A program made the translations under genes and the position numbers. The notes beneath the pieces are model-generated. The model ran no database searches, was not told the origin of the DNA, and saw only the letters and a program-made list of their open reading frames with translations. From Harmothoe impar (taxonomy: Eukaryota > Annelida > Polychaeta > Phyllodocida > Polynoidae): DNA of 64,000 nt. The stretch is taken from contig OX381721.1 of the NCBI GenBank assembly GCA_947462335.1, positions 33,902,303 to 33,966,302 of the forward strand, read 5' to 3'. Positions 12,398-53,900 of this stretch are shown here, piece by piece (position 1 is the stretch's first letter; each line of letters begins with the position of its first letter).

Positions 12398-13163
12398 TCA
12401 ATGCTTAATGCCTTTAGATAATCTAAGGTTTTTGTTCTGTATGACTTGAAGTCTCCTTACAGCTGTGACAGGAGCGCTGTCAAGAATAAAATCACAGTAG
12501 TCCAACATGGGTAGTGACATTGTCATGGATATAGTTAGGCCCAGGCTGTCATCTATGTCTGGCCTCAGCTTACAAAGTTGTACGAATCTAGAATGTGCCA
12601 TTGAGTGGACCTTTTTACATTGTAGGCCAAAGTCCAAGTTAGAGTCAATTATGACACCAAGGTACTTAAAGTGATGCACCCGTTGGAAAGTGTCACCGCC
12701 CAAGGCCAGTGAACTGTTGTTGAAATCAGGTGGGTGTCTCCTGGGGTAACACCATAATACCTTGGTCTTAGCCACAATCACAGTTAGCATATTGGAATAG
12801 CACCAATTATAAATACTATTCAGGTCCTCCTGTAGTAAGCTTCTCATCATACCTATATCTTTACCATTGATTACTACAGCCAAGTCATCCGCATATAAAA
12901 AGTATTTTGAGTTCTTTATACATTTAACTACGTTGTTAATATATAATAAATAATAAAGGCCCCAGTACCAAACCCTGCGGTACTCCACAATTAATGGGCA
13001 TGCTGCTAGATAGTTTGTTATTAGCTCTGTTTCTCTGGCGTCGTCCAGTTAGGTAGTCCCGGGACCACATAATGCTATTAGCATTACAACCCATTTTGCT
13101 TAGTTTATCCAAAAGTATCAAATGATTTACCGTATCGAATGCCTTTTTTAGGTCTAAAAACAA
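12398..13163 (-). pseudogene. LINE-type reverse transcriptase remnant, frameshifted and truncated
   Basis: Two adjacent minus-strand frames form one broken non-LTR reverse transcriptase. The upstream part (from 13163) has FLDLKKAFDTVNH and GVPQGLVLGPLLFIIY. After a frameshift near 12950 the second part has FLYADDLAV (catalytic YADD), TKVLW, FKYLGVIID and LPMLDYCDF. Motif order and spacing fit a Jockey/CR1-like element. The endonuclease and the N-terminal RT are absent, so this is a dead 5'-truncated copy. Confidence 0.85.
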
Positions 13164-17369: not shown

Positions 17370-20300
17370 ATGACGTCACACGTCGTGTTAATGACGTCAC
17401 TCCTGACTTGCCTGCTGCCCACTGGTAACAGCGTCTCTCTGACCGGAAGTGGGGCTACGTTTCCGGCGGAAGTCTACGAGAGTTGGATGCCTGCGTTCCA
17501 GTACCACAGGTCTGACTTTCTCACTATAGACCTGGAGTATGAAGAGGTAAGTGTAAATTTACATCTACACATATCCCATTATCACACTGTCATCCCAACA
17601 CAGATTGCCTGGTCAGCAACCTGCCCTGGTGACTAGTTTACTCCAAAAGGCTAGGTATGATGCAGCAATGCAGCACCAGCGAGTTACTCACTGGTGCTAC
17701 ATGTCGACAAATGTCATCTTTTAGCAAGGTATCGTCCTCAAATCATATTGTAGTCCGTGTTTGTGTACGCAGGTGGGCAGTGCTGCGGGTAAGGCCGAGT
17801 TCATGCAGCTGCCACCAGGTGGAGCCATGTATGCGGGGACGGACGCTGTACTCACGGACGCTGAGAGGTCACATGACCTGCTCCTGGTTCCTGTCATAGC
17901 TGGGTAAGGGCCAAACATTCTCCTCATCCTTTTAAATGAAGAAAATTAGATATTCTCTTCATAAAAACCTGGTTTTAAGATAAATTGCTTAGGTATTGTT
18001 TGGGTATTTCTATGTTTTACAAGGTTCCAGGTTCCATAAAGTATGTACGCAGTAAGGGGGGTAGGGGGGGGGGGGGGGTCATGGCAAATAGCATACTCTT
18101 TTGTAACGCATTTTCACATTTTTTTGTGAGAGAAAGCAAGGCAATCCGAAAAGAAAATTGTGGATAAAACTGAGTTAAATATTTTTTAATGTCTTAATTT
18201 CTACCATGTGTGTAGAGCTGTGGTGCTGGCCTACAACCTGCCGGGGGTGCCCTCCCTGGTCCTGTCCCGTCAGGTGGTGGTCGACATCTTCAATGGTACC
18301 ATCCGTACCTGGGACGACCCCCTCCTCCAGGCGCTAAACCCCAATATGTCGCTACCGTCAACAGACATCCGGGTTGTGGTGCGTGCCGACGACTGCGGGA
18401 CTACAGAGATATTCACTGCCGCCCTGTCATCCTTCTCAGAGGCTTGGGCTCAGCAGTATGGCACATTCACTGAAGGGGTGAGCTGTTGTTGTTGTTGTTT
18501 TTACATTTCAAAATCTAAACTCTTGGAGGTTCAGACAGGCATACAACAGCATTCAGAGCCTATGCCAAAATACAAATAATTTGACTAATAAATGCGGGAT
18601 TATCCAGGAGGGATGTGGGGGACTAGAAAAAGAGAGGATTATGAGGAAAAGCCAGGTTATTGACTATTGACAATTTATAACCCAGGTCAAATAATGGCAG
18701 CACTAAAGGTGTAGGAATCCCTTAAGGGGAGCCCCTTAGTGACATGAAGGCTCCATTTCCCAAGGGGTGGGGCAATCATAGTTGGAACTCTATAGGGGTG
18801 AGCAGTATAGAACATGATAATATCTTGAAAATTATGATAGTAGAATCTTCTAAAAACACTGATAAAAAGTTATACACTAGATGGGGCTTTAGGTTGTCCA
18901 GGTAAATGCGGATCACATTTACCTGGACTACTTGAAGGCCCCTTTAGTGTAGAACAGATATCAGGCCCTCATTGAAGAAATTAAAAAGTGTACTCCAAAG
19001 TTTCCAAAGGACATTTAGTATAAATCCTAAATTATGATCATAGTTAAAAAAATTGTTAGAAGATTGATGTCTTAGCTCCAAAAGTGCCAAATATTTTGAT
19101 ATTTTCATAGAATATTCTTTGTTCTAAGTAGAGTCGTGATCTGCATCCAAACTAAGAAGCAAAATAAATACTATCAAAGCAAATGAAAACGTATTTTTTA
19201 GATTTTCTCATAAAACTGTTGCTAAAAAATTGGCAGTTTTTAGACAGACTTACTTGAAAGTTGGTATCCCAGCTGCTTTGGTCTTCTGAAAAGCAAGGTC
19301 ATGTTCTAAATCATATATGCCAAAGTATCAAATATCTGGGAGCAATATTTCAATGCAGATATACGCATTCACTGGGTTCATTGAAAATTTCCTGAGCAGT
19401 TGAAATTCATGTTGTTTACCAATCATCTCTCACTCTAGGTGGCATCTGTGTGATGTTTGTACAGAGTTCATTGTAAGCCCATACCTTCAGGGTCCCTGCG
19501 ACCTATGCTTAGAACTATAAACAATAAGTGGGAGCACATATCATGTGGCAGACCAAGCTCGGGTTCTCTCTAGATTAGATACCTTACATGCGATCATTTA
19601 TGTATCATTCTAATAGGAAATGTGTACTCAATTTACCAGAGATATATATTTACAACATTTTTAGCAAGTATTACGAAAATTCAATTCCAGTCATCCTAAC
19701 TGATGTACTAACTTTAATGTGTTTCACCTACAGGTAGATAGTGATGAGGTAGCTACACGGTGGTCAAAGTCAGTTCCTGCCTTGTTGGGCCGCACTAACC
19801 GGGGAGTGGCTGGTATCGTCTACTCCTATGCCTACTCCATTGGCTATGTCAGTGTCGGTGAGTCGCGGGTTGGACAGCTCCCCTATGCTCTCCTAATAAA
19901 CCGCGCAGGTAACACGGTCTCTGTCGGCCATGCCAGCTCCACACAAGCTGTCATGGCTGAACGTATGGGTAGCTTTACTGATGACTTAACATGCACCCTT
20001 GTTGACTCTTCTCTCCCCGATGCCTACCCCATCCTCGGCTACTCCTACCTCCTCATACATAAGGAGTCTAACAGCACGGCAGGTTCTGACTCAGCGGCAG
20101 ATGTGAACTGTGCGGCTGCCATAGAGTTGTATCGCTACATCGAGTGGATCATTACGGACTCATACTCTGCCGAAATTGCAGCTGACAAGAAATTTGCTCA
20201 GGTACATATTGCATTTGGCATACTTCCATTTACCTTTTACTATTTAGGGGTATTCTGTTTTGTATTTGATGATTTTTATTTTGTAAAATCATCTATTGCA

Positions 20301-20611
20301 TAAAAATCAGCATATTGCTTGAATGCAGGCCCGCCAGGCCTGCAATAACGCATTATGAAATAAACATTGTGCATTGAAGTACTATGCTGTCCTGGAAGGG
20401 TTTAGGCAATGAAGGCACATTTGCAACAATAAGCTTCATTACAAATCCATCCCAAATGAAATAATTAAAATTATTCACCCAGGTGACGTCAGCGGTAGGA
20501 CAGCTTGTGACGTCACACGTCCTGCAGCGACTGAGGTGTGAGGGGGAGCTGGTGGAGACGCTGGTAGGTCAGCAGAGGGAGGACGAGTACTGGGGCCAGC
20601 AGACATGGACG
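17370..20611 (+). CDS. Signal peptide and PstS-like periplasmic-binding-protein domain (exons 1-5 of the cyclase)
   Basis: Five exons encode a complete two-lobed substrate-binding fold of the PstS (bacterial phosphate ABC transporter) family, about residues 22-385. The N-terminal motif [12 protein letters not shown] matches the PstS phosphate-binding strand. It is followed by VGSAAGK, then [10 protein letters not shown] with the ligand-contacting Asp, then WDD, then [10 protein letters not shown], the phosphate loop with its Arg, Gly and Thr kept but a Cys where PstS has Ser. [15 protein letters not shown] matches the conserved C-terminal lobe strand. A hydrophobic stretch ([12 protein letters not shown]) just before the domain is a plausible signal peptide, placing the domain outside the cell. 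Introns split the domain at five places, so it is a resident eukaryotic gene and not bacterial contamination. Exon 1 could instead start after the AG at 17429-17430 if a separate signal exon exists upstream. Confidence 0.85.
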
Positions 20612-22640
20612 GTAAGAGAGTGCTCAATTTTTAACAACATGGGGGGTCGGTGGATTTTTGCGCAAGCGGGTTGAACATTTATTCGGTCCCTCCCATAGGC
20701 AGGTTGAAATTGATCGCCGCCGACCCCTTTGAGCTATAGTAGCATGCAGGCTTTTTTGCTGAAAAGGGGTCGACATTTTTTTGGTCCCCCCTGAAATCGA
20801 CGAACTCCCCCTCCCTGTTGTTAAAAAATGACTACTCCCTAAGGACCAACTAGATTCCAGTGTGTTATGCATTAATGCAAAGACTAGTGAGAGTTCTTAC
20901 AGCAGTTTTGATAGGAAAATTTAATACTCAAAGATGTTGATAACACTATTGATAAATTGTTCAGAACTATAGCCAGTTTGAACTGTTAATAAAAAGTAAG
21001 ATTATAGTGGCCCAGTTGACTGCCTCATGGACAGTTTAAACTGTCAATAACAGATCTCATTGGCAGTCAATTGTCAACAGGTCAATATAATACCATAAAC
21101 AACAGGCTATCAGAAAGGATACTCCATAGATGATATCTTACACTGCATGGATGTTTGCATTTAAGCAAATTCAAAATCCCTTTAAGGCTACTTAAAAAAT
21201 GAAATGGTTTCTCATCGCCGTGTGCATCAAAAAAATCTGGTTTTGAAAAACCTTTCTTTTTTTTGCCTAATTTTTTTAATGAAAAACATGATAACAATGG
21301 ACAAATATTGGCAAATTAAAGCTTATACTGAGAGCAATGCAGTGGAATAGAAATCACTTACACTTTCACCACTTTCAAAGATCAATAAATTCTTAACTAC
21401 TAAAATGTGAATTTTGGTCACCAAAAATGTATTTCATCCTATATATTTAAGCTTGCGGATTAAAAAAAAGCCTCGCTCGTCAGATTTTTCAGTCATTGGT
21501 GATGAGAAACCATTTTTCTTTTGGAGTGGCCTAAAAACCGTTTTAGTGGATTGAAGTCCACAAATGGCATGTAAATTTCCCAGAAAGGTCATTTGAGTGG
21601 TTTTAAGTGGCATTTACTCAAAAAAAAATGCTTAAAGCGTTTTCTTTCAAGCATTCTGAATTTACTTTAATGCACACATTCATGCAGCAGTATTCATGCT
21701 TTCTCATATAATTGCAGATTTGAGATTGATCTTAACTTTATAAATATATCTTTGCAGGTGCCTGTGGTGGTGATTGTCTGTGTGGCTGGTACCCTGATCC
21801 TGGTACTGGGTGTGTATGTGGTGTACCAACAAGCCGCCTTACGTCGCGCGGTGGCCGCAGACCTCTGGTACATCCCGGCTGATGACATCAATGTTACGTT
21901 AGACCAGGGGAAAGGCTGGCAGTCAGCAGTGTCCGGGATGACCTCAGGACTCTGTGATGATGCTGCTTACGCATGGCCTGCTTCTGTTATTAAGGTGATT
22001 TGACAAATGTTAAACAGACTTTACCCAAATTTGTATTGTATTCGGTGATCTTGTATTGAATATTCTTGTTTTTTATAATATAGTACAGTTTGTATTGTTT
22101 AGCATCATTTCGTGTGGGCCTAGTAATATTAATATTGTTTATATTGTTGAGTTATTTAATTTTTTCTTCATTAGAAAAAGGCTTGGAATCAATTTTACCA
22201 TCTTATTTGCCTCATGATGGTTCAAAAAAAAATTGAAGGAAAGGCCTTTTCTTTAAAATATTGTAAATTTTGACATGCAGGAAAGACTTTAATTCAATAA
22301 TCTTATACTTGAAGGTCGGCGCATGGGGAACAGAACGAGTCCTGATACGACGACTACCAACATCAACCGGTAGAAACCTACGGAGTGTAAGCAACCACAC
22401 CAAGATGTTAATATTAAAATGGCGGACGAAGATGAAGCAGCCCAACCTGCTGTACTGCTACGGCCTGACCTGCTACGACGGGGCCCCGTTCATTGTCAGT
22501 GAGCATGCACAGAAGGGAGTCCTGGTGGACGTGCTCCAGAACTCAAGGTATGTTCATCTCTACGTTTGGCAGATACTTCGCTCCATACCTTCTCATTAAT
22601 CTCTACATCAATCTCTAGGCATAAAATGCCCTATACACAT

Positions 22641-22705
<65 letters not shown>

Positions 22706-22908
22706 ACCCACGGTGGGCGGCTAAGACAAAGGATTCGCACCTTGGTTATATTGCATACCCGAGGGTTAAATCAGATAGACGACACCTGTACCCTGGTATG
22801 CCTTCATAACAACTGCCCACTGGTCAGCGACTCGGTGTATAACACCTCGTTTCGACCTTGTGGGGCAGTGGTTATGAAGCATACCAGGGTACAGGTGTCG
22901 TCTATGTA

Positions 22909-22968
<60 letters not shown>

Positions 22969-25900
22969 TATATGTATATACCTAATCGACTATCATAAAA
23001 TGAACCTGCCAAAAGTTGTCTAACCTATCAGGCTACCATCCCACAAATAGAATCTGGAGCCGGGGAATGTCGGGTTTTGGGCTGGCACATGCCAAGCCGC
23101 CTTTTTCATCACTTACACAGGGTTTTGACTTGTTTATTTTATGACCGTCACTTGGAAGATTCTGGAGACAAGTTTACTTTTTGAGTGCAGCGTACCTTCT
23201 CCATGGCATCAGCTGGGGATGCAGCTGAGTGGTAGGGAATCAGTCCTGGCATCTAAAGGTCGTGGGTTCTAGTCCCACTTGCTTCAGATGATTTTCCGTG
23301 TCTTTTACACAGGCATAACTAAACTTTGATTTGAGTGGTAGAATGAGATTCAACAAGCTATGTTACAATCTTCTTCACAGGTATCAACTCGGGCATGAGT
23401 TTAAGTTCTCAATGGCGACTGACGTTACGTCAGGTGTGGACTTCTTACACCGACAAGGCCTTGTACACGGAGGTCTGACGTCACACTCCTGTTATCTAGA
23501 TGCCAGGTGGAATGTTAAGGTAAGTTTATTTGATTGTGCTTAATGAGATTTCTGTCTAAGAGCAACAGTTTGTGGGGCGTACATACACTACTATATACAG
23601 CATTGGCACAGTGACGGCTGTGTCACTAAGCACATTTTTTTCTTCTTGCCAAAATATTAAATTTTGTGATTCATTGGTAAGGTATGACCACACTGTGATA
23701 TAACCGCAGGTGAACAGCAAAAGCGACTGTAGTGTTATCGCATCTTCTGTAGATTTACAATTGACTCTACGGTTTACCTACACGAAATTGCAGATCTACA
23801 GTAGATTCTACTGTATATCTACAAATAAGGCAACCAACGTTTTATGTAATAGACATGGTACAAGTGAGTCGCCACATAGAGAAAGGAAACAGCGTCATAA
23901 GGGAGTCCAAGTTGCCTCCAGAATGACTCCCCTCTCTGGGGGAGCCCTGGTCCTCATGTGACTCCCTTAGTTGAGCCAGAGAGCTATATGACTCCCCCAG
24001 GTGACTCCTCTAGGTCAGTAAGGGGGTCACCTAGGCTCCCTTAGGAGGCATGGGTCATTCTAAAGGCAACCTGGACTCCCTTTTGAACCTGTTTCTTTTC
24101 TCATTGTAGATGAGTGTCATAAGCAAAGAACAGGATAATTGTCAAAGACACCACCAAGGATAATCACCATTGTTCAAGGCTCATGGCTGTGTCTCATGAT
24201 ATTGGGTCAGTGTGATAGTCTTTGACTAGGTGCCATCTTTGACCAGCTTGAGAGAAAACGGTTTATTTAGACCAGATGAAGATACAAATAGACTGAAAAG
24301 GTTAATGGATAGTATAACATAATCATATTTTATTTTTTATGAAATACAGCAGTCCCATTGACTTACCCAAGGAATGCCGTATTTAACACCCCCCGTGAAA
24401 TAACCCATGGCCGTATTTCACGGCCCTGTGACGTCATCAAAACGGCGCTTTGTTTACATTTGAATGGCATAGAAAGAAGCCAATTTAGCCTTTTTAGGCT
24501 CCCCCTACCATAATTTTGGTATTTGAATCGAAAAAGGTAAAAAATAAACACAAAGGCACACTCGTTTTAGTCTGTTGTAGAGTTATTTCAATTGTTGAAG
24601 AGGGGGCCGCATTTCACTCGACCTACGGCCTCGTGAAATACGGCCCCCCTTCAACTCGTGAAATAACCCTGTCAACAGACTAAAACTTGTGAACCTTTGT
24701 CTATGTATCACACTGTATAGCTGAGATCTCCTCATGTAGATAGCAGACTGGGAGCTGCTCACCCTGGCAGGGGACAGTCCCAAGGTGAGCCGGGCTGAGT
24801 CAGACGCCGATGACGTCGCACGGGGTCGGTACTGGACCGCACCGGAGCTCATCCTCCTAGACAAGGTAAGGACACTCAAAGACTGGATGCAAGGAATTCC
24901 GAGTAGTGAAACTCCTCAGAACTCATATTCAACTAAAGTGACAGCTAGTTGATAATTTAGTTAGTTTTTTTTAATGCAATCGTAAAAAAAACCACAGTAT
25001 GGGATCATGGTTGTATTATGAACCATTTAAGTAAAGAATTTTATTTTAAGAATGTTTGGGTTCATCTTTCAAATTGTTGAATTTAGAAAAAAGCCAGGAT
25101 TCGATCTCACCAGGATGTCATTGTGGGAATGGCTCACTAGATTCACTTCTGAAGGAGTATTGCCAGACACAAACCAAATTCTCGTTTTCTAATTCTCAGG
25201 ACATCCACGTTGTAAATTTATCTTTTTTGATCATACAGTTCAAAATAATGTCGCTATCCATGTTCAATCATTTTGACTTGTGTCATGTGTAAAATACCAG
25301 TATACAGTCTCAAACTCTCTATTCGCACCCTACAGGTGTCGACCCCGACGCGGCGCTCTGACGTGTACAGTGTGAGTGTCCTCCTGGTGGAGATCTTCAC
25401 CCGGCAGGCCCCCTACCAGGAGCTGCAGGGCAGGATAGAGCCACAACAACTCATACAAGCTGTCGCCAAGGTAGCTGCTTTAACCCTTTAACCATTTAAG
25501 GACGGCATCATGCATTAATGCATCATGCCCTTGATCGGAATGATGCATTAATGCAGCACTGGCAAGTAACTTGCCAGTGCTGCATTCAAGCATCATGTCG
25601 ACCCTAGGAGATTAATACACTCCTAAAGGGTTGGCAAGATGCACCGATGCAGCAATTTTTCTCCCGTCATATTCTCAGGAATCTCTCATTTTTGAACAAG
25701 TGAAACTCTAGAAATGCTTGCAACATTTTACACGTGGACGTATACTTGTGGAATTCCGTATAATCCTGCAAGAACAGCCTAACCTCAACCAAAATGATAT
25801 AAACCCCTTTTTGGTGGAAAAGCCCATGGGTTATTAAAGCTCAAAGAGGTTGGCTGTAATAAATGTGAATCCAGGCTGGAGAGGGGTTGAAGCATTTTGG

Positions 25901-28900
25901 ACTCCTTCTAACTTTTCTAAAATCAGCCTGCTCAGGCAAAGATCCATCACCCCTCCTGTTGTTAAACAATAGCCACTCCCTTAGGCTTCCACAAATCTAA
26001 CCCATCTTAAAGCTTGACCGTCATGGTTGAAGTGAGGCCAAAAGCACTTATGGATATAGTTCAGCTTTCATTCACAAGAGGGCTCTTAAGGGCTTGGAGC
26101 TCAGCACAAGATAGGGTGAATATGTTGTAGCTGGACAATGCTTATGATCCCCTGTCCAAACACTGCTGCCCTCTGGTGGAACTGTCATTTTGGTCTAAGT
26201 ATGGAAAATGCTGAATTTACTCCCTGACGGCCCAGCTTTAATTAAAATGTCTTGTTGTAGGCTGGTCTCCGCCCCAATATCCAGGAGCTCCAGCCTGAGG
26301 CGGTGCGTGACGTCATACGGCAGTGCTGGGACGCCGACCCCATGTGCCGCCCCACAGCAGGTCATGTGACCAAGGTGTTGTCGGCGCGACGTCCTACCAA
26401 GCGGTCCGTGCTGGAAGCCATGATGGAGACCCTGGAGGGGTATGTGATCACCCTGGAGGAACGGGTTCAAGTTAGTGTGAATTTCGGATTCAGAATATGT
26501 TGCTCAAGAACAATGCATTATTTCTTTGCTTATGGTACAACAGACAGTAGTAGCTCAGTGGCTAAATAGCTAAATAGCTTTGGGCATTCTTTGATTGCTA
26601 TTGCACAGGGCATTCTTTGATTGCTATTGCTTAATTTGTATATTTTGTCAATGATCAGAACTATATCAGCGGTCTCTTTCACAGGAAGCTACAGCAACTT
26701 CATCCTCATCATGAGACTGTTTGAGAGATGCTGTCACAGAGTTGGTAAAAATGATCAAGAGTGTATGGCAGAGTTCACTAAGTTCACCCTGACTTTGAAC
26801 CAAAGGTGTGAACCTACATTTCCAAGCACAGTTTTAGTGGCTGGATGGGTATTAGAATAAGGTTTAGCCACTCTTGGCTCTACACTGGTGGCATGTGCCG
26901 GGTCTCTGTGCTATGTTGCTCCTGCACTATGCTGTGGCTATGTAGTATGTCAATCCTGCAGTAATCTTGGTGCAAGGCAGAGGGGAGACTTTTCTTGAAG
27001 GGGCTGTATCATTAGTTAAAATGGTTAAAAAAATTGCAAATTCTGGATACCAGGCATATTACTATTTATGGCTAATGACAATATGTGACCTTTCAATGAA
27101 TTTTAATACATGTATTCTTTCCAGAATACGATGCTCAAAGGAGATGGGGACTTTGAGTGGCTTACCCTTATTCCAATACCCACCCAACCACCAAGGTTGT
27201 GCTTGCAGATGTAGGTTTACGCTTTTACCTTGAACCTCTTAAAATGGAAACTGGTGCAGAGTTGACCAAGGTTACTGGCCCCTTGACTCTCTTTTACAGC
27301 AACGTACAGTGCAGAGCAGTCCAAGTTTACCATAATCTTGAATTTCCTTTACAGGAATCGACGTACAGTTGGCCAAGGTTAATTGATCCTTGAATCCAAA
27401 GATGTAACAGGTGCGCACGCTAGAGCTGTCCAAATTAACTATATTACAGTGAATACGTTACAGAAATCGACATGGAGTTGGCCAGAATTAACCCAATTAA
27501 TCTTTGCATCCAGAGATAGCTAAAGTTAACCATGCATGACGTTGAATCTCTTTGACAGGAACAGACGCAGAGGCTACACAGGTTACCCCTATCGATCATT
27601 GAATCCTTGAATTTAACAGGAGCGTATACAACAGCTTACCCAAGTGCACCACTACCTAGAATCTTGTTTACAGAAATCGACATAAACTTATTGACCCTCT
27701 AACCTTTTTTTTACCGGGAGCGCACAGTTCAACATAACCTTTAATCTCTTTTAGAGTTGCCCAAAATTCCCCCTATTAATCCTAGTATCCTCGATTTTAA
27801 CAGGAGCGTAGAGCAGAGTTGGTCCAAGTTCACCATAACCTTTAATATCTTTCAGAGGAACTGACATAGAGTTGGCCAAAATTAACCTTATAAATACTTA
27901 TATCCTTGAATTGACCAGGAGCGTACGGCAGAGTTGGCCCAAGTACACCGTAACCTTGAAGGTCTGTTACACCAGATCCTGCCCCCGTCAGTGGCTGCCC
28001 ACCTCGCGGCCGGACGACCCGTCACACCCGAGAGCTACGACTCGGTCACCGTCTTCTTCTCAGACGTTGTCGGCTTTACCTCTTTGTGCGCAGACTCTTC
28101 CCCCATGGAAGTGGTAGCCTTCCTCAGCGATCTCTATTCGACCTTTGATGCTACTATTGACCTCTTTGATGTCTACAAGGTCAGTTTATCTGATGCACTG
28201 ATTCTATTAGACTAAGCTCCCACTATATGAATTGTATTTTGATATTTATCATTAGGATTTCAATGAGGATTTATTGTTCTTGATGTGGCCATTTCACCTA
28301 ATGTTGCAGCTAACATATCCAGTATATCATGTACAATCTAATCTGACTTTGATAAGCCAAAATGTTTTGAATGATGTCCATGAAATTTCAGGATAGTCTG
28401 GGGAGAAATCAAATCTGACAATATCTCTAGTCGATATAAAATCAATACAAAAGGCTTTATTGACTAATGTAAGAATACATTCAAGTCAGAAATATTTCCA
28501 AAATATACAACTTTGATGTTTTTATTGCAGGTTGAGACTATCGGAGATGCCTACATGGTAGTCTCTGGGCTTCCCGAGTCTAACGGCATCTTACATGCCT
28601 CTAATATCGCCCACATGGCCCAGGGCTTCCTCCAGGCCGTGGGGGCCTTCCGCATCCGACACAAACCCCAGGTACGGAATTCCATTCACAAACCCCAGGT
28701 ATGGAGTTCAATTTGCCTAAGTTCTAGCAGTAGCACACCTGGGCTTGTTTGGTTATGCCATTCACGTTAATTATGAGGCCCTCTTTTTCGTATCGAAAGA
28801 AGCAAGCCCCGCAGGTGTTAATTATTCTAATGTGTTTAATAAATTTCCATTCATTCCTTTATATATCATCGCACTTTGGCCCCAACTGACTTTATTCCTA

Positions 28901-31022
28901 TAGAAAAAAGCTAATCATTCTATTTTTTTCTGAATAAATTTCCATTACCACGGCCGGCTTAATAAAATAGTTATTTCGTTGTTCCGTTACAAACATGCAC
29001 ACTGTGCTTATGCCCTAATACGAATTTGGGGAACAACACACATTAGGCCCAATTTTGTCAAATTCTTGATGGAACAGTGTGGTTGTTCCATTACTACATG
29101 GTGCTACGGCCTACTCAATGCTATGCCTATGGGACCTCCATTGGCCCCATGGAGTACGGTGTAGCCATACTCCATGGCCTCCAATTCTTTTGATTTTCTG
29201 CATTTTAAGACAGTAGGCCCACCTATTAACATAAATACACATCATGCATCATGAGTTGAAGCTGGGTCATTTCACAGTCAGCCTTCGGCATCGTGTGATA
29301 TGACCCAGCTTCAACTCGTGAAATATGACGTGCATGCACCGTAAAACCTCACATAAGAGCCGCTGCTAGTACGTGATTCAGACTCAGCTTTCTTTTGATA
29401 CCAAACATACCTACATAGGGTGTGGCTTATACGAGAGTCTTTGTAAGAATACTACAGTACCAAGTTTACAATTTTGAGACCCCCTCTGTGGCTTATATAA
29501 TCTGTCAAAGTTAGGGGTGCGGGTTATAAGCGAGGTTTCATGGTATGTCAATGGCATAGAATTTTGCCTAATTACCCAGGTCAGACTGCGTCTGCGTGCG
29601 GGGGTACACTCGGGGCCGGTGGTGGCCGGTGTGGTGGGACAGAAGATGCCCCGGTATTGTGTGTTCGGGGACACGGTAAACACCGCCTCCAGGATGGAGT
29701 CCACATCACAGCCCATGAAGGTCCAGGTAGGCAGAAAATTGTACCAACTGCACCAAATTGCAGTCTTTGTGAAATCTTTTTGATCTCACAATACATTCGG
29801 TCCTGCAAATTTTCAATGTTGAAGGACCGGCTACATTTTTGAAGGACCGGATAGCCACATATCTGATGATTTCTGTTTTTTAAGAATAAATCAGTTTTGT
29901 CCATGAAAAGTATAATCTATTTGTAATAATTCTTTTCCAAATCAAGATAGATATTATATAGTTTTACACGGTATATTGACATAAATATTTCAGCTTCAGA
30001 ATCCCAACTGAATTCTTCTAGTTACAAAAGCCCAACATACAACTGGACATTTGGTCCTGCTACACTTGTCAATCTGCTGGACCGGTGGCCTTTTAGAAGG
30101 ACATTGCCTGAATTGGCATTTGATGAAAAATTGTATTCCATGAAGTTAGATCCAGGGGCTACACACTGTAAAAACTGAGTTTGAAAATAAATATCAAATA
30201 GCCGAAACTTGTTGCTTAAAATCAGAGTTTGAGCACCTTCAGTTCTAGTGAATGCTACCTGAACTGCAAATATGCCATTATGATCTTTCTGTGACAATTA
30301 TTGAACTGAAAGCCGCTGAAATAACATTCACGCAATGCATCCGACAACCTTCCTGTTCCAGGTGTCCTACCCCACCTACAAGCTGCTCATAGAACAAGGA
30401 GGGTTTGAGTTCACGTTCAGAGGGGAGGAAGTCATCAAGGTAAGAGACTCCTTTTCAAGTTTTTAATACATTTTAGGAAACTGCAGACTAACGGTGAAGC
30501 TTTTCTGAGGTAAACGCTTCCGTGAGCCAACAGAACCAGCTAGGCCATGGGGGGGGGGATGGCTATCTTGAATGTGCACCCCTGATGTCATCTTGGGTTC
30601 TAGCTAAAAAGAAAAGAGAGAATAGCTTGTCTCTTTACCCACTACAGGACACCAAGGCTCATAAGCCACAACAGACCCTTATCATTATAACCTGAAACGT
30701 CTCCCATGTTTCTAGTGGACAGTGACTGCGTCAATCTTCGTTCAGATCTGACATATTTCAGATGTGAGGATCCCGAAAATTCATTTCACCAAAACGAACA
30801 ATACATTTAAGCCTATAAGCCTCTCAACATTGTAGCATTTATTTGAGTGATGATTGTGCCTGAAAACATGCTATGTAAGGAATGCAATTGAAACTACTTA
30901 AACTTGAGACAATAACCAATATCTTGGGTCCCACTGACTATTTACAGACTTTCCTTTCCTTCCAGGGAAAAGAGAAGATGCCGACTTTCTTCCTAGTGGA
31001 CTCTGAGAAGATAAAACAATGA
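17370..31022 (+). CDS. Receptor guanylate cyclase with PstS-like phosphate-binding ectodomain (16 coding exons)
   Basis: This gene predicts a type I membrane receptor that makes cGMP from GTP when its ectodomain binds ligand. Coding exons seen: 17370-17546, 17773-17903, 18216-18477, 19734-20201, 20483-20611, 21758-21994, 22315-22547, 23381-23519, 24740-24865, 25336-25470, 26261-26470, 27919-28179, 28531-28671, 29580-29726, 30362-30439, 30966-31022. All junctions are AG/GT, the phases agree throughout, and the joined length (2931 nt) is a multiple of three, giving 976 residues. Domain order: signal peptide, PstS-like domain (about 22-385), membrane helix (about 390-412), kinase-homology domain (about 430-715), coiled coil (about 716-775), class III cyclase (about 785-960). 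The start is the first ATG of the likely signal peptide; an in-frame ATG at 17391 and one further upstream at 17298 are alternatives, as is a missed upstream exon. The architecture is read directly from the sequence; phosphate as ligand is inference. Confidence 0.88.
20616..20839. mobile_element. PIF/Harbinger-like MITE inserted at the donor of cyclase exon 5
   Basis: TAA target duplications lie at 20613-20615 and 20840-20842. The left TAA is positions +2 to +4 of the exon 5 donor (exon ends at 20611), and the first base of the element supplies the G at +5. Confidence 0.85.
21184..21532. mobile_element. MITE with aatggtttctcatcacc ends, copy 1
   Basis: Termini ggctacttaaaaaatg...aatggtttctcatcgcc and ggtgatgagaaaccattttt then ggagtggcc are inverted. 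The second copy is at 33244-33523. Confidence 0.75.
21758..26470 (+). CDS. Membrane helix and kinase-homology domain (exons 6-11 of the cyclase)
   Basis: Exon 6 opens with a 20-odd residue hydrophobic helix ([19 protein letters not shown]) followed by basic residues (LRR), the expected single-pass orientation with the cyclase inside. Exons 7-11 align by eye with the kinase-homology domain of receptor guanylate cyclases: [10 protein letters not shown], the SVLVD-like segment, VHGGL at the catalytic-loop position, [26 protein letters not shown] and [11 protein letters not shown]. Catalytic features of true kinases are missing: the glycine loop is not recognisable, the Lys strand reads VLIRRL, HRD is replaced by HGG, and DFG by DWE. 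The domain is therefore a pseudokinase, as is usual in this family, relaying ligand binding to the cyclase. Exon 11 ends in the dimerisation helix (LEERVQ). Confidence 0.82.
22641..22971. repeat. (AT)n and (CA/TA)n microsatellites enclosing a hairpin element
   Basis: Dinucleotide runs lie at about 22646-22702 and 22912-22965. Between them, 22776-22904 is a fold-back repeat with arms tagacgacacctgtaccctg and cagggtacaggtgtcgtcta. Confidence 0.85.
23206..23290 (+). repeat. tRNA-derived SINE head
   Basis: An A-box-like gcagctgagtggtag is followed by a T-arm gtggg-ttctagt-cccac at 23262-23278 with B-box form. No functional cloverleaf closes, so it is a SINE or tRNA pseudogene. Confidence 0.6.
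24366..24718. mobile_element. Fold-back element with cgtgaaataacc words, copy 1
   Basis: About 340 bases match 59398-59705 in the same orientation, including catggccgtatttcacg, tgacgtcatcaaaa, ttgaatcgaaaaaggtaaaa and ttcaactcgtgaaataacc. A diverged copy lies at about 56540-56765, and short hairpins with the same words at 29246-29328 and 53474-53580. Confidence 0.75.
26754..27918 (+). repeat. Tandem degenerate copies of a 3' splice site plus exon 12 start
   Basis: The intron upstream of exon 12 contains about 13 divergent units of roughly 38-63 bases. Each ends in a pyrimidine-rich stretch plus AG (for example tttacag, ttaacag, tctttcag) and begins with a variant of the exon 12 start (gagcgtacggcagagttggc). 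Best copies start at 27620, 27718, 27804 and 27856; weaker ones start near 27246, 27302, 27354, 27411, 27464, 27559 and 27674, with an outlying copy at 26756. Several copies still spell ER..AEL.QVH in frame but reach stops soon after. The functional acceptor is at 27917-27918. Confidence 0.8.
27919..31022 (+). CDS. Dimerisation helix and guanylate cyclase catalytic domain (exons 12-16)
   Basis: Exon 12 completes the signalling helix ([19 protein letters not shown]) and enters the cyclase at [12 protein letters not shown], which holds the first metal-binding Asp. Exon 13 has [15 protein letters not shown] with the second metal Asp and the Glu that recognises guanine. Exon 14 has [13 protein letters not shown] and [16 protein letters not shown], including the guanine-selecting Cys and the Asn and Arg of the transition state. 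All residues needed for a catalytic homodimer are present, so the enzyme should be active and GTP-specific. Exons 15-16 complete the fold ([18 protein letters not shown]) and end at the TGA at 31020-31022 with a short tail. Exon 13 has a duplicated donor site, and the intron before exon 12 is filled with decayed copies of the exon start. Confidence 0.9.
28660..28713 (+). repeat. 27-bp tandem duplication of the exon 13 donor site
   Basis: Two adjacent 27-base copies (28660-28686 and 28687-28713) differ at three positions. Each contains cacaaaccccag followed by a GT donor (gtacgg and gtatgg). Using the second donor (exon end 28698) adds exactly nine codons (VRNSIHKPQ) in frame. Confidence 0.85.
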
Positions 31023-44900: not shown

Positions 44901-47900
44901 AGTTGACCAATGCCCTACGTTTTTTGTTTTGTTTCAATGAGCCCTTTCGAAACTCGTTTATTAACAAAACATGCGTTCGAGACGTGGCGTAACATTTGTT
45001 AACATATGATACAAAAAAAATCATTACTCTGTGAACTACACTACAGGCGAATACCCCTGGACATTGTAATGATAATGTAACCATTTAAGTAGTTGGTAAG
45101 GCAGATGTTGATAGATTTATTCCTGAGATGACTGGCATGTTTACATCTTCAAATATGGCTCCATAATGGCTGCTCCCCAAGTTCCCCAGTCCACCACCAG
45201 GTGGAGTCAAAGGCTATATTCTTAGTTCCTGTTTATACCACTTGGTGGGGTGGCTATCACTGGATATCACTACATCCCCCTTATTACAAAGATGTTATGG
45301 GTATATGAAATCAATTTGTCAAATTGTCTTATGTATTGAAGATTATATGTAATGGTGGGTTAAGGGTAGACTGCCCTGTCCCCCTGACGTTTGTAGGGAT
45401 TATTTTGCCCTAGTTGTCAAACGTCAACTTTAGTCTTTATATCTGCTCGGCATTATTGACACCCGTCCACTCCGGGTAGTTGTTCCCGCATGACTGGCTG
45501 GTGCATCTAACGGCCTCGATGGTGGTTTTGGCGGAGGTGGATGCTTCGGAGCCAGTTGTGGTGACGGTGGTCGTTGCAGCCTTGGAGACGTATCTGAGGC
45601 AGGCGGATGTGATGGCCTTGGAGACACAGGCGGATGTGATGGCCTTATAGGTGTTGTCGGCTGCTGAATCTCCAATGGTCTTCCTTCTGGTCTCTCTTGT
45701 AGATGGACTCGATTACGCCTAACCAGACTTCCTCTCTGGTTCTCCACGATATATGATCGAGGTGCTGCATCACTTGGCTCAATGACCTGTCCTGGACGCC
45801 AAGCATGTGTCGACTTGTCGTACACACTGACCCGTTGCCCAGGGTATAGTGGTGCTAAGTCCTTCGCTCCTCCATCATGGTAAGCCTTGCTTTTGGTCTG
45901 CCGTTCCAGCATTCTTTCTTTCACTGGTCCACTTGCAGTTTCTTCGCTGCGGAATGGAAGACTTGCTGTTAGTTTTCTGTTCATCAAAAGCTCCCCTGGC
46001 GACGGAATGACATTGTCTATGGGGGTTGCTCTGATGTTAAGTAGGACCTTTTGGATGTTTTGTCCTGACTTCATTGCTTTCTTTAGTATTGGCTTAATCC
46101 ATTTAATCTGTCGCTCTATAAATCCATTGGATTGTGGGAATTCAGGCGATGATGTTACGTGCTGGATCTCCCACTCTCTGCAGGTTTTCTGGAAGGCTTC
46201 TCCTGTGTACTGGGGTCCATTGTCAGATCGGATGGTGTTAGGCTTCCCAAGCACACTGCATATACCTTCTACGTAGCTTGCTACGGAGGCAGAGGTTGCT
46301 GAGGAAAGTTCCTTCACAAATGGAAATTTCGAATAATAGTCAGACACAATGATAAACATCTTGCCTTTTATCTCAAATAGATCAGTACCTATTACCTTCC
46401 AGGGTCCATCAGGAACCTCTGTGGGTAACATTGGTTCTTTCGTGTTTGCTTCCTGGAACTCCTGGCAAAGTGGGCAGGTCTTGATCATTTTGCTGATATC
46501 ATCGTTTATCCCAGGCCAGTAGATGGTTTCTCTTGCTAACAATCGTGTCTTCTCGATACCCTGGTGTCCTACGTGTAGTTGCTTCAGTAGCTCAGGCTGC
46601 ATCGATGGTGGTATCACAACCTGCTTTCCCTTGCAGATCACACCATCCTCTATTCCTAGCGTGTCACGGAAGCTCCAGTAAGGCCGCAGGTCAGTAGGAA
46701 GCTCTTTGATGCTTTCCGGCCATCCAGTATAGATGACTTCTGCGAGTGCGTTCAACACTGGACACTCCCTGGTCTTGGTTCTCAGGTGGTGTTGTTTCTC
46801 GGGACTGAAGTGTATCAGATCCAGGGTGATATCATCGACTCTGACATCAAGCGTGACATTTCCTGTATCTTTCGGGTTAGGCAACCTGGAAAGTGTATCA
46901 GAAATGACCATTTGGCTCCCTGGACGGTACAAAACACTGTAGTCGTAACCTTGTATCTTCAGTAACATACGCTGCAGTCGTGGCGGGGCGGATGAGAGTG
47001 CTTTACGCGCAATCATCTCTAACGGCTTGTGATCGCTCACTACTGTAAATGATCTGCCGTAAAGGTATGATGTGAATCGTTCAACCCCATAGACAACGGC
47101 AAGCATTTCTCTCTCTATGTTGCTGTAGTTGCTCTGTGTTGTGGTAAGTGTTTTGGATGCGAAGGCAATTGGTTTTCCTTCCTGTACTAGACATGCACCC
47201 AATCCCTTCATCGACGCATCAACTTCTATGCTGATGGGCTTGGTAACATCGTAGAAAGCGGCGATACGGGATGTCATGACTTCTTTCAGCTTCTTGACTG
47301 CGATCGTATGAGTTTCTTCCCAAATGAAGACAGAGTCCTTCTTCAACAGATCTCTCAGCGGAGCGGCAAGTGAGCTGAGGTTGGGAATGAATGTCCCAAG
47401 GTACGTCAGTAGCCCTAAGAATCGTTGTAGGTCTTCAGGATTCTTTGGTTCGGGCATTTCATTGATAGCTTGTACCTTGGCTGGATCTGGTGATATCCCT
47501 TCTGCACTGTACGTATTGCCAAAGAAGGATATTGAGCTGGCCTTGATGGTACACTTTTGGGAGTTGAAGACCAGTCCATACTCTTTGGCTGCATCCATCA
47601 ATGCAATCAGATGCTTGTCGTGTTCCTCTTCGGTACGACCGAACACGCAAATGTCGTCAGCTATGCCCACACACCCATCGAGATTCTCTAGAAACTCGTC
47701 CATCCGTTGCTGGAAGATATCTTGGCTTATGTTCAGGCCGAAAGGCAATCTCCTGAAACAGTATCGTCCAAACGGAGTACGGAAGGTGGTTAGCAATTGA
47801 CTCTTCTCCTCGAGGGGTACACTCCAGTAGCCTGCTTTGGCATCTAGCTTACTGAAGATTTTGGCACCAGCGAACTTTGGATTGACCTCTTCTAGAGTAG

Positions 47901-50900
47901 GCATTTTATGAGGACATCGCTTTATGGCATTGTTCAGACATTTAGGATCCAGACATATCCTGAGACTACCATCTTTCTTTGTGCTGTACACAAGACTGGA
48001 GCACCAGTCGGTGTGCTTGGTAACCTTGCGGATCACGCCTGTTTCCTCCATCTCCTTGAGTCCTGCCTTTATCTTTGGTAACAGATTGACGTTGGACTTA
48101 CGAGGTCGGTTAATGTGCGGCTCAGCGTCTGGCTTCAGGAGGATTTTGGCAGGCTCCTTGAAGCGACCAATGGCATCGAACTGATCTGGGTATCGGCTTT
48201 TCAGATCGTCCACGGTGGACACAGATCGGGTGATCTGGTCAACTGTAACCCTCGTACAGTTGATCGTGATGAGACCAAGGGCCTCGCACGTTGGTAGTCC
48301 TAGTATTACAGGTCCGTCGACTTCAACGACGTAGAATGTAGCCTCGTGCCATTCGGACGTTCGAGACTTGCATCTAACTGCCATGGTTCCAAAGCAGTTA
48401 ATGGTGTTGCCTGAATACGACGACAGCTTCGCCTTGGTAGTAGGCGTCAGGATCTCACGCGGGTCGCGGTCACCATACATCTGACGGAAGGTACGTAGGG
48501 GTAGAGCATTAGCATTAGCACCAGTGTCAAGCTTCACCTTGAGCGTGTGCTTGCCCTTGACATCTGGTATTTTCACATCAAGGTTGGTGAATGCTTTGTC
48601 CTGCTCAACTGCATCAAGGTCTCCCAAGGTGACGGCATAGAACACTTTGATAGGCTCGTCGGCACTGTCGCTGTCTTCTGAGGTACTTGACGCGTTGTTT
48701 TGTACGGCATGTACTTTCTTACGACCTTTCTTCTTGTGGTAGTCTTTCTTTCGTGACTCCTTGTCTGGCGCGCTGGCAGTTGCACCGCTGTTCTTTGGAT
48801 GACCCAACTTCTTGTTGTGGCAACAGTCAATCCAGTGGCCCATATTACCGCAGTGGCCACACTTCGAGTTGTATGCGGGGCATTCGCGGTACTTGTGTAT
48901 TCTTCCGCAGTTCCCACAGGGCTTTCGTTTCCCTTTTCCATCATGCTTCTGAACGTAGTCGACATTCGGAACTTCCTTACGGGAACGTCGTTTAAGGGAT
49001 TCCAGTCGGAGAGAGCCTTTGGTTGCAGCTTCATGCTGTCGACCCTCCTTCAAGACTTGTTCGAGCGTCAAATCCTTACCCTTGTCAAGCAGGCTTCGAC
49101 GGAAAAGCTCTATTGGCGTAGAAGCTATCACTAACTCGATGACGCGTTCTTGAAGCTCGGCATCGGTAAACTCGCATTGTAACGCCTGGGTACGCGCTCG
49201 CGATACGAACTCGTCTAGGGACTCGTTTTCGTCTTGTTCATACTCAAACATCAAATCAAGGCGGTGTACTCGGAAATGTACAGAGATATTGAGTTGGTCT
49301 TCAAAAAAACTCCAGATCTTGTCCGGATCTTTTAAGTGTTCTGCGCTCAGCCCTGAGGCATTTAGCCGGCGCAAACCCTCATCCCCCAAACCTATCTTGA
49401 TTTTACGAGCTATTTTGACCTTCTCGGTAACCTCATTGTCCTCAATTACTAAGGACATGCGTTGCTTGAATAGCTTGAACACCTCAGGTCTATTGGGGGT
49501 GTCCCAGTTCATGGTAGGGTATTTGGCAGCCATATTGTTGGAATTGGAATTTTGTGACAACAATTGTCTTTTTTTTTCACAGTGTAGGTAATGGAAGTGA
49601 AATTTGTGACAACAGTTTTTTTCACAGTGTAGGTAGTGACAACAGTTTTTTTTCACAGTGTAGGTAGTGGAAATGAATTTTTGTGACAACTGTTTTTGTT
49701 CACAGTGTAGGTAGTGACAACAGTTCTTTTTTACAGTGTAGGTATTACTATACTATGGCTGTATAGTTATAGGCAGTCACTGTAGTCAATATACAGGTAG
49801 TAGTATATAGACTATAGACAGTCACAAAAGTCAAATACACAGGTAGTAGTGCATGGACTATAATCACTTTCCTCCAACTTGTAGATCTATCTAACACATG
49901 GTATTGGTATAGGCACTGTCAACTGTAAATGGTTCCTCCTCCTGGTGTGGTACCATTGGCATTGTAGAAGAAGATTTCCTACTCACAGTTTTTGGTGTAA
50001 CCTGATGTTGGTGTTGCTCAAAACATACATCAATTCATCATTTACTTTACCACTGCCACCATGTAATGATAATGTAACCATTTAAGTAGTTGGTAAGGCA
50101 GATGTTGATAGATTTATTCCTGAGATGACTGGCATGTTTACATCTTCAAATATGGCTCCATAATGGCTGCTCCCCAAGTTCCCCAGTCCACCACCAGGTG
50201 GAGTCAAAGGCTATATTCTTAGTTCCTGTTTATACCACTTGGTGGGGTGGCTATCACTGGATATCACTACAGACATGGGACCCTGACATGTGGTTAGGTC
50301 ACCTGCTACCACATCACCGAGAGCTAATATGAAATTGAAGCAAAACTTAAAGCTACACTGGCGTGTACTGGACATACTCGCTCACATTGACACCCCCTCT
50401 AGTGGGTAGAAAAGACACTAAGATTACTATGGGTTACACAATCTTAGCTCAATGTCCAAGCACAAGATGAAAGCTATCTACAATTCTTCATGCTCAGTAG
50501 GGGTCACAGCAGGTGGTCTCTCACCTCTGATCCCATGTGAGCAGCTCAGACCTCCTGCTGTGATGTGGTGTCATAGGGAGTGGTAATAGAAAGGATGGTT
50601 ACATCTACAAAGAGATGGGTAGATTACTATGTGTTTATGTTATGTAAAGTTATGGTTTAACACATTTAGACACTAAAACAGCCAAGATGTGACAGGTGGG
50701 GGCAGGGAAGAGCCCTGGAGAAGAGGGGATGGGTGGATTGGACCTGGAGGAGTTATATTTCTTGATTATATAAGGCCTGCTAACGGCGGCGCCATTAGCA
50801 GCAGAAGTGAGTTCATGCCAGAGCAGCTTTAAGGTTGTGTAAATCTAAGTAAATGCCACACAATGTTGATTATGGCATCCTGGCCCTCACCTTAAACATC

Positions 50901-53900
50901 TTGGTTGGGGTGTAGTTCTGAGCACGCATTGTGTCGGAGACGTCGATCGGAGTGACGTCTGGGAAGGGGACCACCAGGTCATAGATGTCGTTCCACTGCT
51001 GGGCCCACATGTTGCCTGTTTAGAAAGAAGTGATAGTATGTTGGCTCTAGATCCCTAAATTTGACACGGCAACATGGGTCATTTTGAGGCTTAGTGACTT
51101 GGGACAGGAGGAAAAATTGGATAGTGACATAAGACATGGGATGGAGCATTTCTTAAAATCAATATAGCAACATGGGCTTTTCTTAATACAGGGTAGGGCA
51201 GGGTGCCCTACCCTGCCCTACCCTACAGCACCCTGCCCTGCTCTGCAGTCCCCTCCCCTGTCCTGCCCTGCAGCAACCTGCCCTGCAGTACCCTGCCCTT
51301 CCCTGCAGTGCCCTACCCTGCTTTGCCATGCCTTGTCATGCTCTGTCATGCCATACTACACCACACCATGCCATATCCTTCCATGCTATGTCGCACCCTG
51401 TCCTGCCCTACCATGCATATTGATATTGATATTCCATGTCATGCTATTCCATCTAATGCCCTGCCTTGCCCTGCCTTACCCTGCCTTGCCCTGCCTTGCC
51501 CTGCCTTGCCCTGCCCTGCTCCAGTCCATATCTTCTTGCATAACCCTCTCACCTCCCAGGCTTAAAGACTACCTGTCTGAAGCTTTAATACAGGTAGTTG
51601 ACAGACAGACAGCAACAATCTGTCCCTGACAGCAATCTCAAATACAGAAATTAACAGACTGACAGCACATTTTAAGGGTTAACAGCAATGCAAACATGCA
51701 TATTCTACTTGTCTATATACTAATGTACCAGGGTCTATATATGAGATCACTCAGAGACATAGTGCATGTCTATGACCCTCCTCGGCTTCCGTACTAATTG
51801 GGTATAACCTGAATTTGATTCACTTACAAACCACGAGTTTTAGATAGAAATACAGCATTTGGATATTACAAAAAGCCACCAATTCCCCTGTTTCCCAGAC
51901 TAAATACTCTGCTTGATATATTTTCTTGATATGATAATAATGCACAGCAAGCACAGTTTGAGAGTGCTATACTAACCTAAGAGGTGTGCAGGTATAGGGC
52001 CTGTAGGACTGATGCGGCCGGGGTACTGTTCCATCAGCTTACGCCTGATGTAGGCATGCAGCTGTCGGTAAATCGGTGTCACCTGGCGGAATAACGAGTC
52101 GACCATCTTCTCGAGCTCCTTGTCCATGTCGTAGTTTGATACCCGCCAGTGGACGCCTGCATCGGGTAAACCTGGAAATACAGAGAAGACAATAAAGAAG
52201 TTAGGACATCCGGAAAAACTGTACATCCTGCTACACGTTGTTCTGTACTCTGCACTGACAGCAACCTTTTTTTCTGTTTCACCTTGGTCACATATCACTT
52301 TCATGATCTTATGTGACTGCTTAACCTTTATTACCAAATTAAATCCTTGTTGCAGTTGTTGATAAATGATTACCACCAGAGGCTTGCAGGAAGTGCTTTC
52401 TGGCACAGATGAGGCTATTTATAATCTCTAGTGCTCATTAATATCTCTCAACCCCACTTACTAATTGATTCATCATAATGCTAGAAGTGTTTCCCGATAT
52501 GACTCATCAAGATGAGTGTTGCCGGTGACAAGCGGAGGATAGCCTCTACATCTAAGCACACAAGGCGCCTGACCGAGGCTGGAACCAGCGCAAATAGCCA
52601 CCAGAGGGCGCCAAATGGCAGCGCATGATGAGGACAGTTCTGATAAAGCTCTTGTTGGTTTTGGGAGAGGGGCCCTCTATGTGAGATTATTATGAAGCAT
52701 TACTCAATAGAAGGAGATATTATGAAGCATTTGTCAGGAGCATTTGGAACCAGCTCCCTGCTGGTGCTAGTCCTGTCATGACTGACCACAAGCTCTTTCA
52801 CCAATGAGAATCTAGTTTTCTCAAAGTTAGGTACATTTTGAGGTAGCCATCGTCGGACATATGGTGCAGAAGTAGGTTATGAGCACATGTGAGAAAAAAT
52901 AATTCAGGGACCCCCTATTATCGCCTGCAAGCTTGATGTATGGGTGGAAAATTTGTTCTCCACATGTCTCTGCTAATAATGAGAGTTGAGCTTTAGAATT
53001 CCAGATGTAGGACCTATTTAAGCTACCCTACCTGTAGGTATTTTAGTTAGAACCGGAATTCTTTTAATGACAATATATATCTGGGGCATTTTGCGGTATT
53101 TTCTAGAGTCTTAGCTGCGCTATCATTTGTGTAGATGTAGGTAGAGGCTTTCAAGTCTGGGCAATATTCTGAGACAGGACATGGGATTGTTGAGTCCCTC
53201 TCTGCCTACCCTAATGGCCTGTACAAACAACCGGGTGCTTATATTCCCGACGAGGCTCTAATAGTAGAGAATGAGTTCCCCAGCTAGGCGCTTATTGATT
53301 TAATTTCCCTTTCCCCCTGGTGCTCATTTGTGACCAATGCTTATTTGAGACCAGAATATAGTGCATTAATCTATTTCACGACTACTTTTATCAGTGGCAC
53401 TTATTTGAGATCCACCCCATTTTAAGACCCTAGTCTGGATACATAGACAAATGCCAATGCTCATTGATACCGTCTCTGTTGTATTTCACGAGTGGGGGCT
53501 GGGGCAGTATCCCACAAAGCCGCAGGCTGAGTCGGATGCGCGCCAGCCCCCACGAGTGAAATACATCAGAGCGGTGTCAATGTAGTTGGCATTTGTGTTT
53601 ATTTTTTAATTTGAAGCCATTTAATGAAGGAAAAACAACTTGAATACGGCCACATTGTATTCAATGGGGGTCATTGAATACGGCCTGCCAGTGCTTAAAC
53701 ATAGGAGATCTTGTATTTCCAAAAATAAAAGCCAATACAGTATCCAAACTCCTACCTACCTATGTCATGTGCGCCCTGGTTCTGGAGCTGCACAAAGCGG
53801 TCAAACAGCGTCCTCATCTTACGCCCCGTCTTGTTGCGCCACCCAGTCCACGCCCACAGCAGCTCGTCATAGTCATGTGACTCAGACATGAGTTTGGTGA

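Follow-up and report, generated by a model that had tools for sequence, protein, structure and literature searches.

A predicted receptor guanylate cyclase with a PstS-type phosphate-binding ectodomain in the polychaete Harmothoe impar

Gene structure and domain layout

The region analysed, hereafter the window, is a 64,000-nucleotide stretch of the genome of the polychaete Harmothoe impar (assembly GCA_947462335.1, contig OX381721.1, positions 33,902,303 to 33,966,302 of the forward strand) and carries a gene predicted to encode a receptor guanylate cyclase whose ectodomain is of the bacterial PstS phosphate-binding type (Table 1). The gene was rebuilt from the DNA sequence as sixteen exons in a single frame of 976 codons plus a stop, with GT-AG borders at 15 of the 15 introns. 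By eye, a signal peptide was placed at about residues 1-20 and a membrane helix at the hydrophobic residues 390-412 (21758-21826). The proposed start codon fits because collinearity with the Paralvinella protein P0001 (residues 1 to 968, 43% identity by BLASTP) begins at residue 1.

Pfam searches of the joined window protein matched PBP_like_2 (PF12849) at residues 20-308 (3.1e-19, 70.2 bits, cut-off 27), a kinase-like domain at residues 505-717 (4.9e-31) and Guanylate_cyc at residues 785-969 (4.9e-63). The usual ectodomain of receptor cyclases is of the ANF_receptor type, which is a different family with a binding-protein fold, and ANF_receptor (PF01094) was absent among the four Pfam families matching the window protein at E <= 0.001. 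The ectodomain alone scored 204.9 bits (1.6e-60) on the NCBIfam PstS model TIGR00975, whose cut-off is 205, and aligned with solved PstS (1.1e-38), and the cytoplasmic half aligned with atrial natriuretic peptide (ANP) receptor 1 (3.4e-112). An earlier sequence-only reading of the window had described a PstS-like domain in place of the usual ectodomain, in frame through 16 exons with a membrane helix, a pseudokinase and a catalytically complete cyclase, and had proposed the Pfam search of the joined protein; the rebuild was made on the coordinates of that reading, the three expected domain families were all matched, and six of six catalytic residues were recovered in the predicted cyclase. As judged from its sequence, the gene is a fusion of a PstS domain with a receptor guanylate cyclase.

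Table 1 Features of the PstS-type receptor guanylate cyclase gene in the window
Feature	Position	Strand	Basis
Whole gene model	17370..31022	+	sequence rebuild; collinear with Paralvinella P0001
Exon 1: probable signal peptide (by eye), then start of PstS lobe 1; pocket T30, F31	17370..17546	+	
Exon 2: PstS lobe 1; pocket S62, D83	17773..17903	+	
Phase-2 intron within PstS domain, position common to paralogs	17904..18215	+	
Exon 3: PstS; pocket R159, D161, C163, G164, T165	18216..18477	+	
Exon 4: PstS up to residue 346	19734..20201	+	
Exon 5: PstS end (conserved Cys) and membrane-proximal linker	20483..20611	+	
Exon 6: membrane helix and juxtamembrane region	21758..21994	+	
Exons 7-11: pseudokinase and start of signalling helix	22315..26470	+	rebuild, Pfam, residue check
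Exons 7-11 singly	22315-22547, 23381-23519, 24740-24865, 25336-25470, 26261-26470	+	
Exons 12-16: signalling helix and guanylate cyclase, 6/6 catalytic residues	27919..31022	+	
Exons 12-16 singly	27919-28179, 28531-28671, 29580-29726, 30362-30439, 30966-31022	+	

Paralogous loci in the genome

The genome searched comprised 1.51 Gb in 736 contigs. PF12849 matches occurred at five loci only, the window gene and four more (L006 to L009), all five lying on three chromosome-scale contigs. A query of the ectodomain plus membrane region gave 12 matches, none of them outside these five loci, a count that assumes that an N-terminal piece lying 31 kb upstream of L009 is part of L009. At L006 (C21) an intronless open frame of 900 codons aligned with window residues 104-958 at 42% identity, and this single exon held a PstS lobe, the membrane helix, the pseudokinase and the cyclase, with Pfam matches to PBP_like_2, kinase and cyclase. 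L007 and L008 adjoin each other on C10 with open frames of 812 and 784 codons, which covered the second PstS lobe, the membrane helix, the pseudokinase and the beginning of the cyclase; a later exon carries what remains of the cyclase. Near these tandem receptors, at L007:3-1454 (+), a 484-codon frame resembled by eye a mobile-element DNA polymerase of family B. L009 (G000:C11, about 46.2 Mb; L009:5243-7876) had an in-frame TGA in place of a conserved Trp near the start of the second PstS lobe, followed by an 843-codon open frame with membrane helix, pseudokinase and a degenerate cyclase (20.5 bits, cut-off 21.9), and may be a pseudogene.

A phase-2 intron was located at the identical PstS codon in the window gene, L006, L007 and L008, where both sides were seen, and at L009 its acceptor side only was seen. 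Because L006 holds all four parts in one exon, the joining of PstS to cyclase is independent of predicted splicing. Chance open frames, considered as a source of the predicted protein, were ruled out by the single-exon paralog, the introns shared by the paralogs and the relatives in other phyla described below. The cyclase family as a whole gave 184 matches genome-wide, many of them on separate exons, which suggests a large cyclase repertoire.

Relatives in other organisms and fold of the ectodomain

The ectodomain was searched against 5.8 billion proteins, with lengths set by the whole protein and scores computed for the candidates sharing most words; this gave 14 proteins, and the Lineus ectodomain used as a query gave five including itself. 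The combination of PBP_like_2, kinase and cyclase was present in the annelid Paralvinella, the molluscs Solemya, Nucella, Saccostrea and Octopus, the nemerteans Lineus and Tubulanus, the tardigrade Paramacrobiotus and the proteins P0007 and P0138, with the records of Paramacrobiotus and P0007 being without the first PstS lobe. The sequences of these relatives are already public under other names, several of them labels of natriuretic-peptide or retinal receptors (atrial natriuretic peptide receptor 1-like and 2-like, retinal guanylyl cyclase 2-like, GC-E-like and 2G-like).

Other layouts and bacterial-looking proteins were also among the matches. The PstS domain has close bacterial kin at 37-38% identity. 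Pfam placed PstS together with 7tm_3 in P0008 from the fungus Calcarisporiella and in P0011 and P0014, which are possible phosphate-reading G protein-coupled receptors by their sequences. P0009 carried WWE and PARP catalytic domains alongside two PstS stretches in one protein, and P0006 combined two PstS stretches with ANF_receptor, so that both types of binding-protein ectodomain stood together. P0006 had been considered as a further protein of the PstS and seven-transmembrane (7TM) type and was rejected, as Pfam gave ANF_receptor and PBP_like_2 with no 7tm_3. In P0012 Pfam matched PBP_like_2 only, and by eye the ectodomain was followed by a membrane helix and a divergent class III cyclase-like stretch.

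Structure comparison of the Paralvinella P0001 model identified the ectodomain fold as that of PstS, within a search that sampled well model parts 19-365 and 419-739 and the listed families only. The model had a helix at 364-417 between the ectodomain and the kinase-homology domain and a signalling helix at 741-779, where the sequence aligned with GC-A. Two further expectations of the sequence-only reading were borne out, each in its own way: the PstS fold on the Paralvinella relative rather than on the window protein, and the membership of all exons in one gene by single-exon genomic paralogs rather than by transcripts. Annelid, mollusc, nemertean and tardigrade proteins of the same layout also speak for a real fusion. 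The five loci in the genome, the wide spread of the layout and the degenerate cyclases of many relatives lay beyond the reach of that reading.

Phylogeny and origin of the PstS domain

A careful tree of 50 ectodomains was built, the bacterial part of which consisted of 23 of the 80 fetched loci, three metagenome rows and E. coli, and from which P0012 and P0014 (long branches) and P0020 were omitted. All 23 eukaryotic rows formed one clade (100/98), which was nested with 14 Chloroflexota or metagenome rows (100/100 versus the 13 other bacterial rows). Within it twenty animal-type rows formed one clade (98/94) with the fungal P0008 adjoining (97/88). A quicker tree of 64 rows, with 32 of the 80 bacterial loci, five metagenome rows and E. 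coli, likewise grouped 26 of 26 eukaryotic rows (Shimodaira-Hasegawa approximate likelihood ratio test 99). P0008 and P0014 were placed within the eukaryotic clade, and P0011 (large insertions), P0005, P0013 and P0019 were left out of both trees. For the predicted proteins, these groupings establish that the eukaryotic PstS ectodomains sampled descend from a common ancestor, and the ectodomain tree together with the shared layout suggests a single fusion in animals.

Two cysteines near the domain end were present in 8/8 animal rows and 6/6 Chloroflexota loci and in 0/14 other bacteria at those columns; the E. coli piece did not extend to them. Both were found in P0006 and P0009, one in the metagenome protein P0045 and neither in the fungal P0008. 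The query of the genome_contigs scan (A3) was built from Chloroflexota-like PstS, and because the bacterial queries and the resulting sample favour Chloroflexota, this phylum as donor is a lead and not proof. The nesting of the eukaryotic ectodomains within Chloroflexota-like PstS likewise holds for this sample. A viral_contigs scan with alignment A2, of limited sensitivity, gave 16 pattern matches and no relative that would point to a virus-borne origin.

Conservation of the phosphate pocket

The phosphate site of E. coli PstS, which we take to consist of T10, F11, S38, D56, R135, D137 (a salt bridge), S139, G140 and T141, was compared with 21 animal-type rows, seven of which were assigned to animals solely from their layout and tree position. 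Among the structure matches, Protein Data Bank titles name D56 and D137 mutants examined with phosphate. The window protein has T, F, S, D, R, D, C, G and T at these nine sites, eight of the nine being kept. Twelve rows covered all nine sites, the Haliotis P0016 record ending soon after the membrane helix, and F11, S38, R135 and G140 were kept in all twelve. T10S was the sole difference from E. coli in seven of the twelve (L006, L007, L008, Lineus, Nucella, Haliotis and Tubulanus).

A permutation test was carried out on the 146 columns in which 47 bacterial PstS showed at least 90% uniformity. In the animal-type rows, pocket cells were kept in 134/153 cases (0.88) versus 1341/2478 (0.54) for the other columns, with p 0.004 as a comparison of columns. 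The same difference was found in receptors with an intact cyclase (45/50 versus 432/772, p 0.002) and in members with a pseudo-cyclase (53/64 versus 515/1012, p 0.010). Residues of the predicted phosphate pocket are in this sense preferentially conserved.

Pseudokinase and cyclase residues

Kinase and cyclase residues were checked in fifteen receptors, the six class III cyclase residues being the metal-binding Asp pair, the guanine-binding Glu/Cys and the Asn/Arg. The Asp of the kinase HRD motif was Gly in 15/15. The window protein, L006, Paralvinella and Paramacrobiotus had all six cyclase residues, as did L007 and L008 across two exons, and P0138 had four of six. Eight receptors (L009, Solemya, Lineus, Nucella, P0007, Tubulanus, Saccostrea and Octopus) kept three or fewer. 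Catalytic and pseudo-cyclase members are therefore both present in the family.

Proposed function and alternative explanations

The explanation we favour, at a probability of roughly 0.62, is that the window gene encodes a single-pass receptor guanylate cyclase with a PstS phosphate-binding ectodomain and that phosphate regulates the synthesis of cyclic GMP (cGMP). Inorganic phosphate would enter the cleft that separates the PstS lobes, both lobes would close on it, and the movement would be relayed by the membrane helix, pseudokinase and signalling helix to alter the rate at which the paired cyclase domains convert GTP to cGMP. We infer that phosphate is the ligand and is answered with cGMP, that the receptor operates as a dimer, and the direction in which it responds; the role could be chemosensing of water or food or the monitoring of phosphate in body fluid. 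Bacterial PstS has a phosphate affinity that is about micromolar or below, which would be better matched to sea water than to body fluid, so the receptor may face the outside or its affinity may have dropped. T10S and the Cys at site 139 are candidates for such a lowered affinity.

Several observations weigh against this explanation. The Cys at the Ser139 site of the window protein stands alone among the 21 animal-type rows, Asp56 is Glu in Paralvinella and Octopus, Asp137 is replaced in Octopus (Ser), P0007 (Gly) and P0071 (Glu), and Thr141 is Ser in Solemya, Saccostrea and P0071. Because the rows share ancestry, the permutation p-values do not compare lineages. The TIGR00975 score falls 0.1 bit under its cut-off, and narrower PstS models are far under theirs (NF008171, 148.1 of 339 bits; TIGR02136, 22.6 of 206.6 bits). 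The predicted structure is that of a relative modelled as a monomer with a predicted template modelling score of 0.52, so the domain arrangement is unsure. With cyclase residues lost in eight of fifteen receptors, not every member of the family can have cGMP as its output.

The departures at sites 139 and 56 and the others listed would also fit a PstS ectodomain that binds another ligand, such as arsenate, phosphonate, pyrophosphate, a phosphorylated metabolite or a peptide, with layout and signalling logic unchanged. Receptor cyclases elsewhere read peptides or ions, and the ectodomain of GCY-8 binds chloride, which inhibits the receptor from outside the cell (PMC5225109). We regard a different ligand as unlikely, though well worth keeping in mind: conservation is higher at the phosphate site than in other conserved columns, and the seven fully covered rows that differ from E. 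coli by T10S only include three paralogs from the same genome. It is improbable that phosphate sensing is real and cGMP is not the direct output, the window gene serving mainly as a scaffold or as heterodimer partner of pseudo-cyclase paralogs. The conserved pocket of the eight receptors with lost cyclase residues speaks for this, as does an obligate heterodimeric receptor cyclase described in the abstract of the same paper (PMC5225109), against which stand the complete residue sets of the window protein, its three paralogs, Paralvinella and Paramacrobiotus.

The introns of the predicted model reach about 1.4 kb and would leave room for a neighbouring PstS-like gene and a receptor cyclase to have been read as one. 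This is very improbable, as the one-exon L006 refutes it for the paralogs at the DNA level and collinear proteins occur in other phyla. The bacterial type of the domain and its bacterial kin might suggest contamination by bacteria or a transfer that reached this genome alone and very recently; this is more improbable still and was rejected on the introns inside the PstS domain that the paralogs share, the five loci on three chromosome-scale contigs and the relatives in several phyla within one eukaryotic clade.

A wider interpretation is held tentatively, at a little under even odds. Eukaryotes would own an unrecognised class of phosphate receptors derived from one old capture of a Chloroflexota-type PstS, and this sensor would have been joined to class C 7TM receptors, both in a fungus and in other eukaryotes, and to a PARP-bearing membrane protein. 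In protostomes it would have joined receptor guanylate cyclases, one branch of which would later have lost cyclase activity and would signal otherwise, and the window gene would encode a direct extracellular phosphate receptor of an animal.

Comparison with known systems

Like ANP receptor 1 (GC-A) and the GCY proteins of C. elegans, the window protein has an ectodomain, one membrane helix, a pseudokinase, a signalling helix and a cyclase, in line with the general domain order of receptor cyclases in PMC1435932. Unlike the natriuretic-peptide type, its ectodomain is PstS with no PF01094 match, and the gene can be described as a receptor guanylate cyclase whose ectodomain is foreign. Bacterial PstS (E. 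coli 1ixh/2abh, Y. pestis 2z22, M. tuberculosis PstS-1) has no introns or fusion, whereas the window protein adds the membrane helix, pseudokinase, cyclase and Cys139. As a component of the Pst ATP-binding cassette transporter, PstS is a separate exported protein feeding a permease; in the window it is not in a transporter gene and is fused instead. DING proteins and human HPBP (2v3q, 4m1v) gave a weaker fold match than PstS and are soluble, without a receptor part. The PstS-7TM proteins likewise resemble receptors with PstS on the outer side, with 7tm_3 where the window protein has pseudokinase and cyclase.

Cyclases with a nitrate/nitrite-sensing (NIT) domain form a group in other invertebrates and similarly place a bacterial-type anion sensor on an animal membrane cyclase, although the sensor family differs. 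An open frame in the genome searched here, at L104:5556-7238 (G000:C14), had Pfam matches to NIT and cyclase and no kinase match. No paper on the NIT-domain group was found in the open-access literature searched, and no description of a PstS-type guanylate cyclase was among the open-access matches listed, a scope that leaves out subscription papers and preprints.

If the favoured explanation is true, the window gene would be a candidate for extracellular phosphate sensing in animals, where the sensing mechanism is still unsettled, and a bacterial nutrient-uptake domain would have become a eukaryotic sensory ectodomain. The candidate sensor is testable in annelids, molluscs, nemerteans and a tardigrade.

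Other features of the window

Outside the receptor gene, a single gag-pol-like frame of 1440 codons at 45430-49752 (-) was by eye probably a long terminal repeat retrotransposon, and a fragment at 12398-13048 (-) resembled by eye a reverse transcriptase. An exon of an angiotensin-converting-enzyme-like peptidase (Peptidase_M2, 8.2e-19) was located at 51972-52418 (-).
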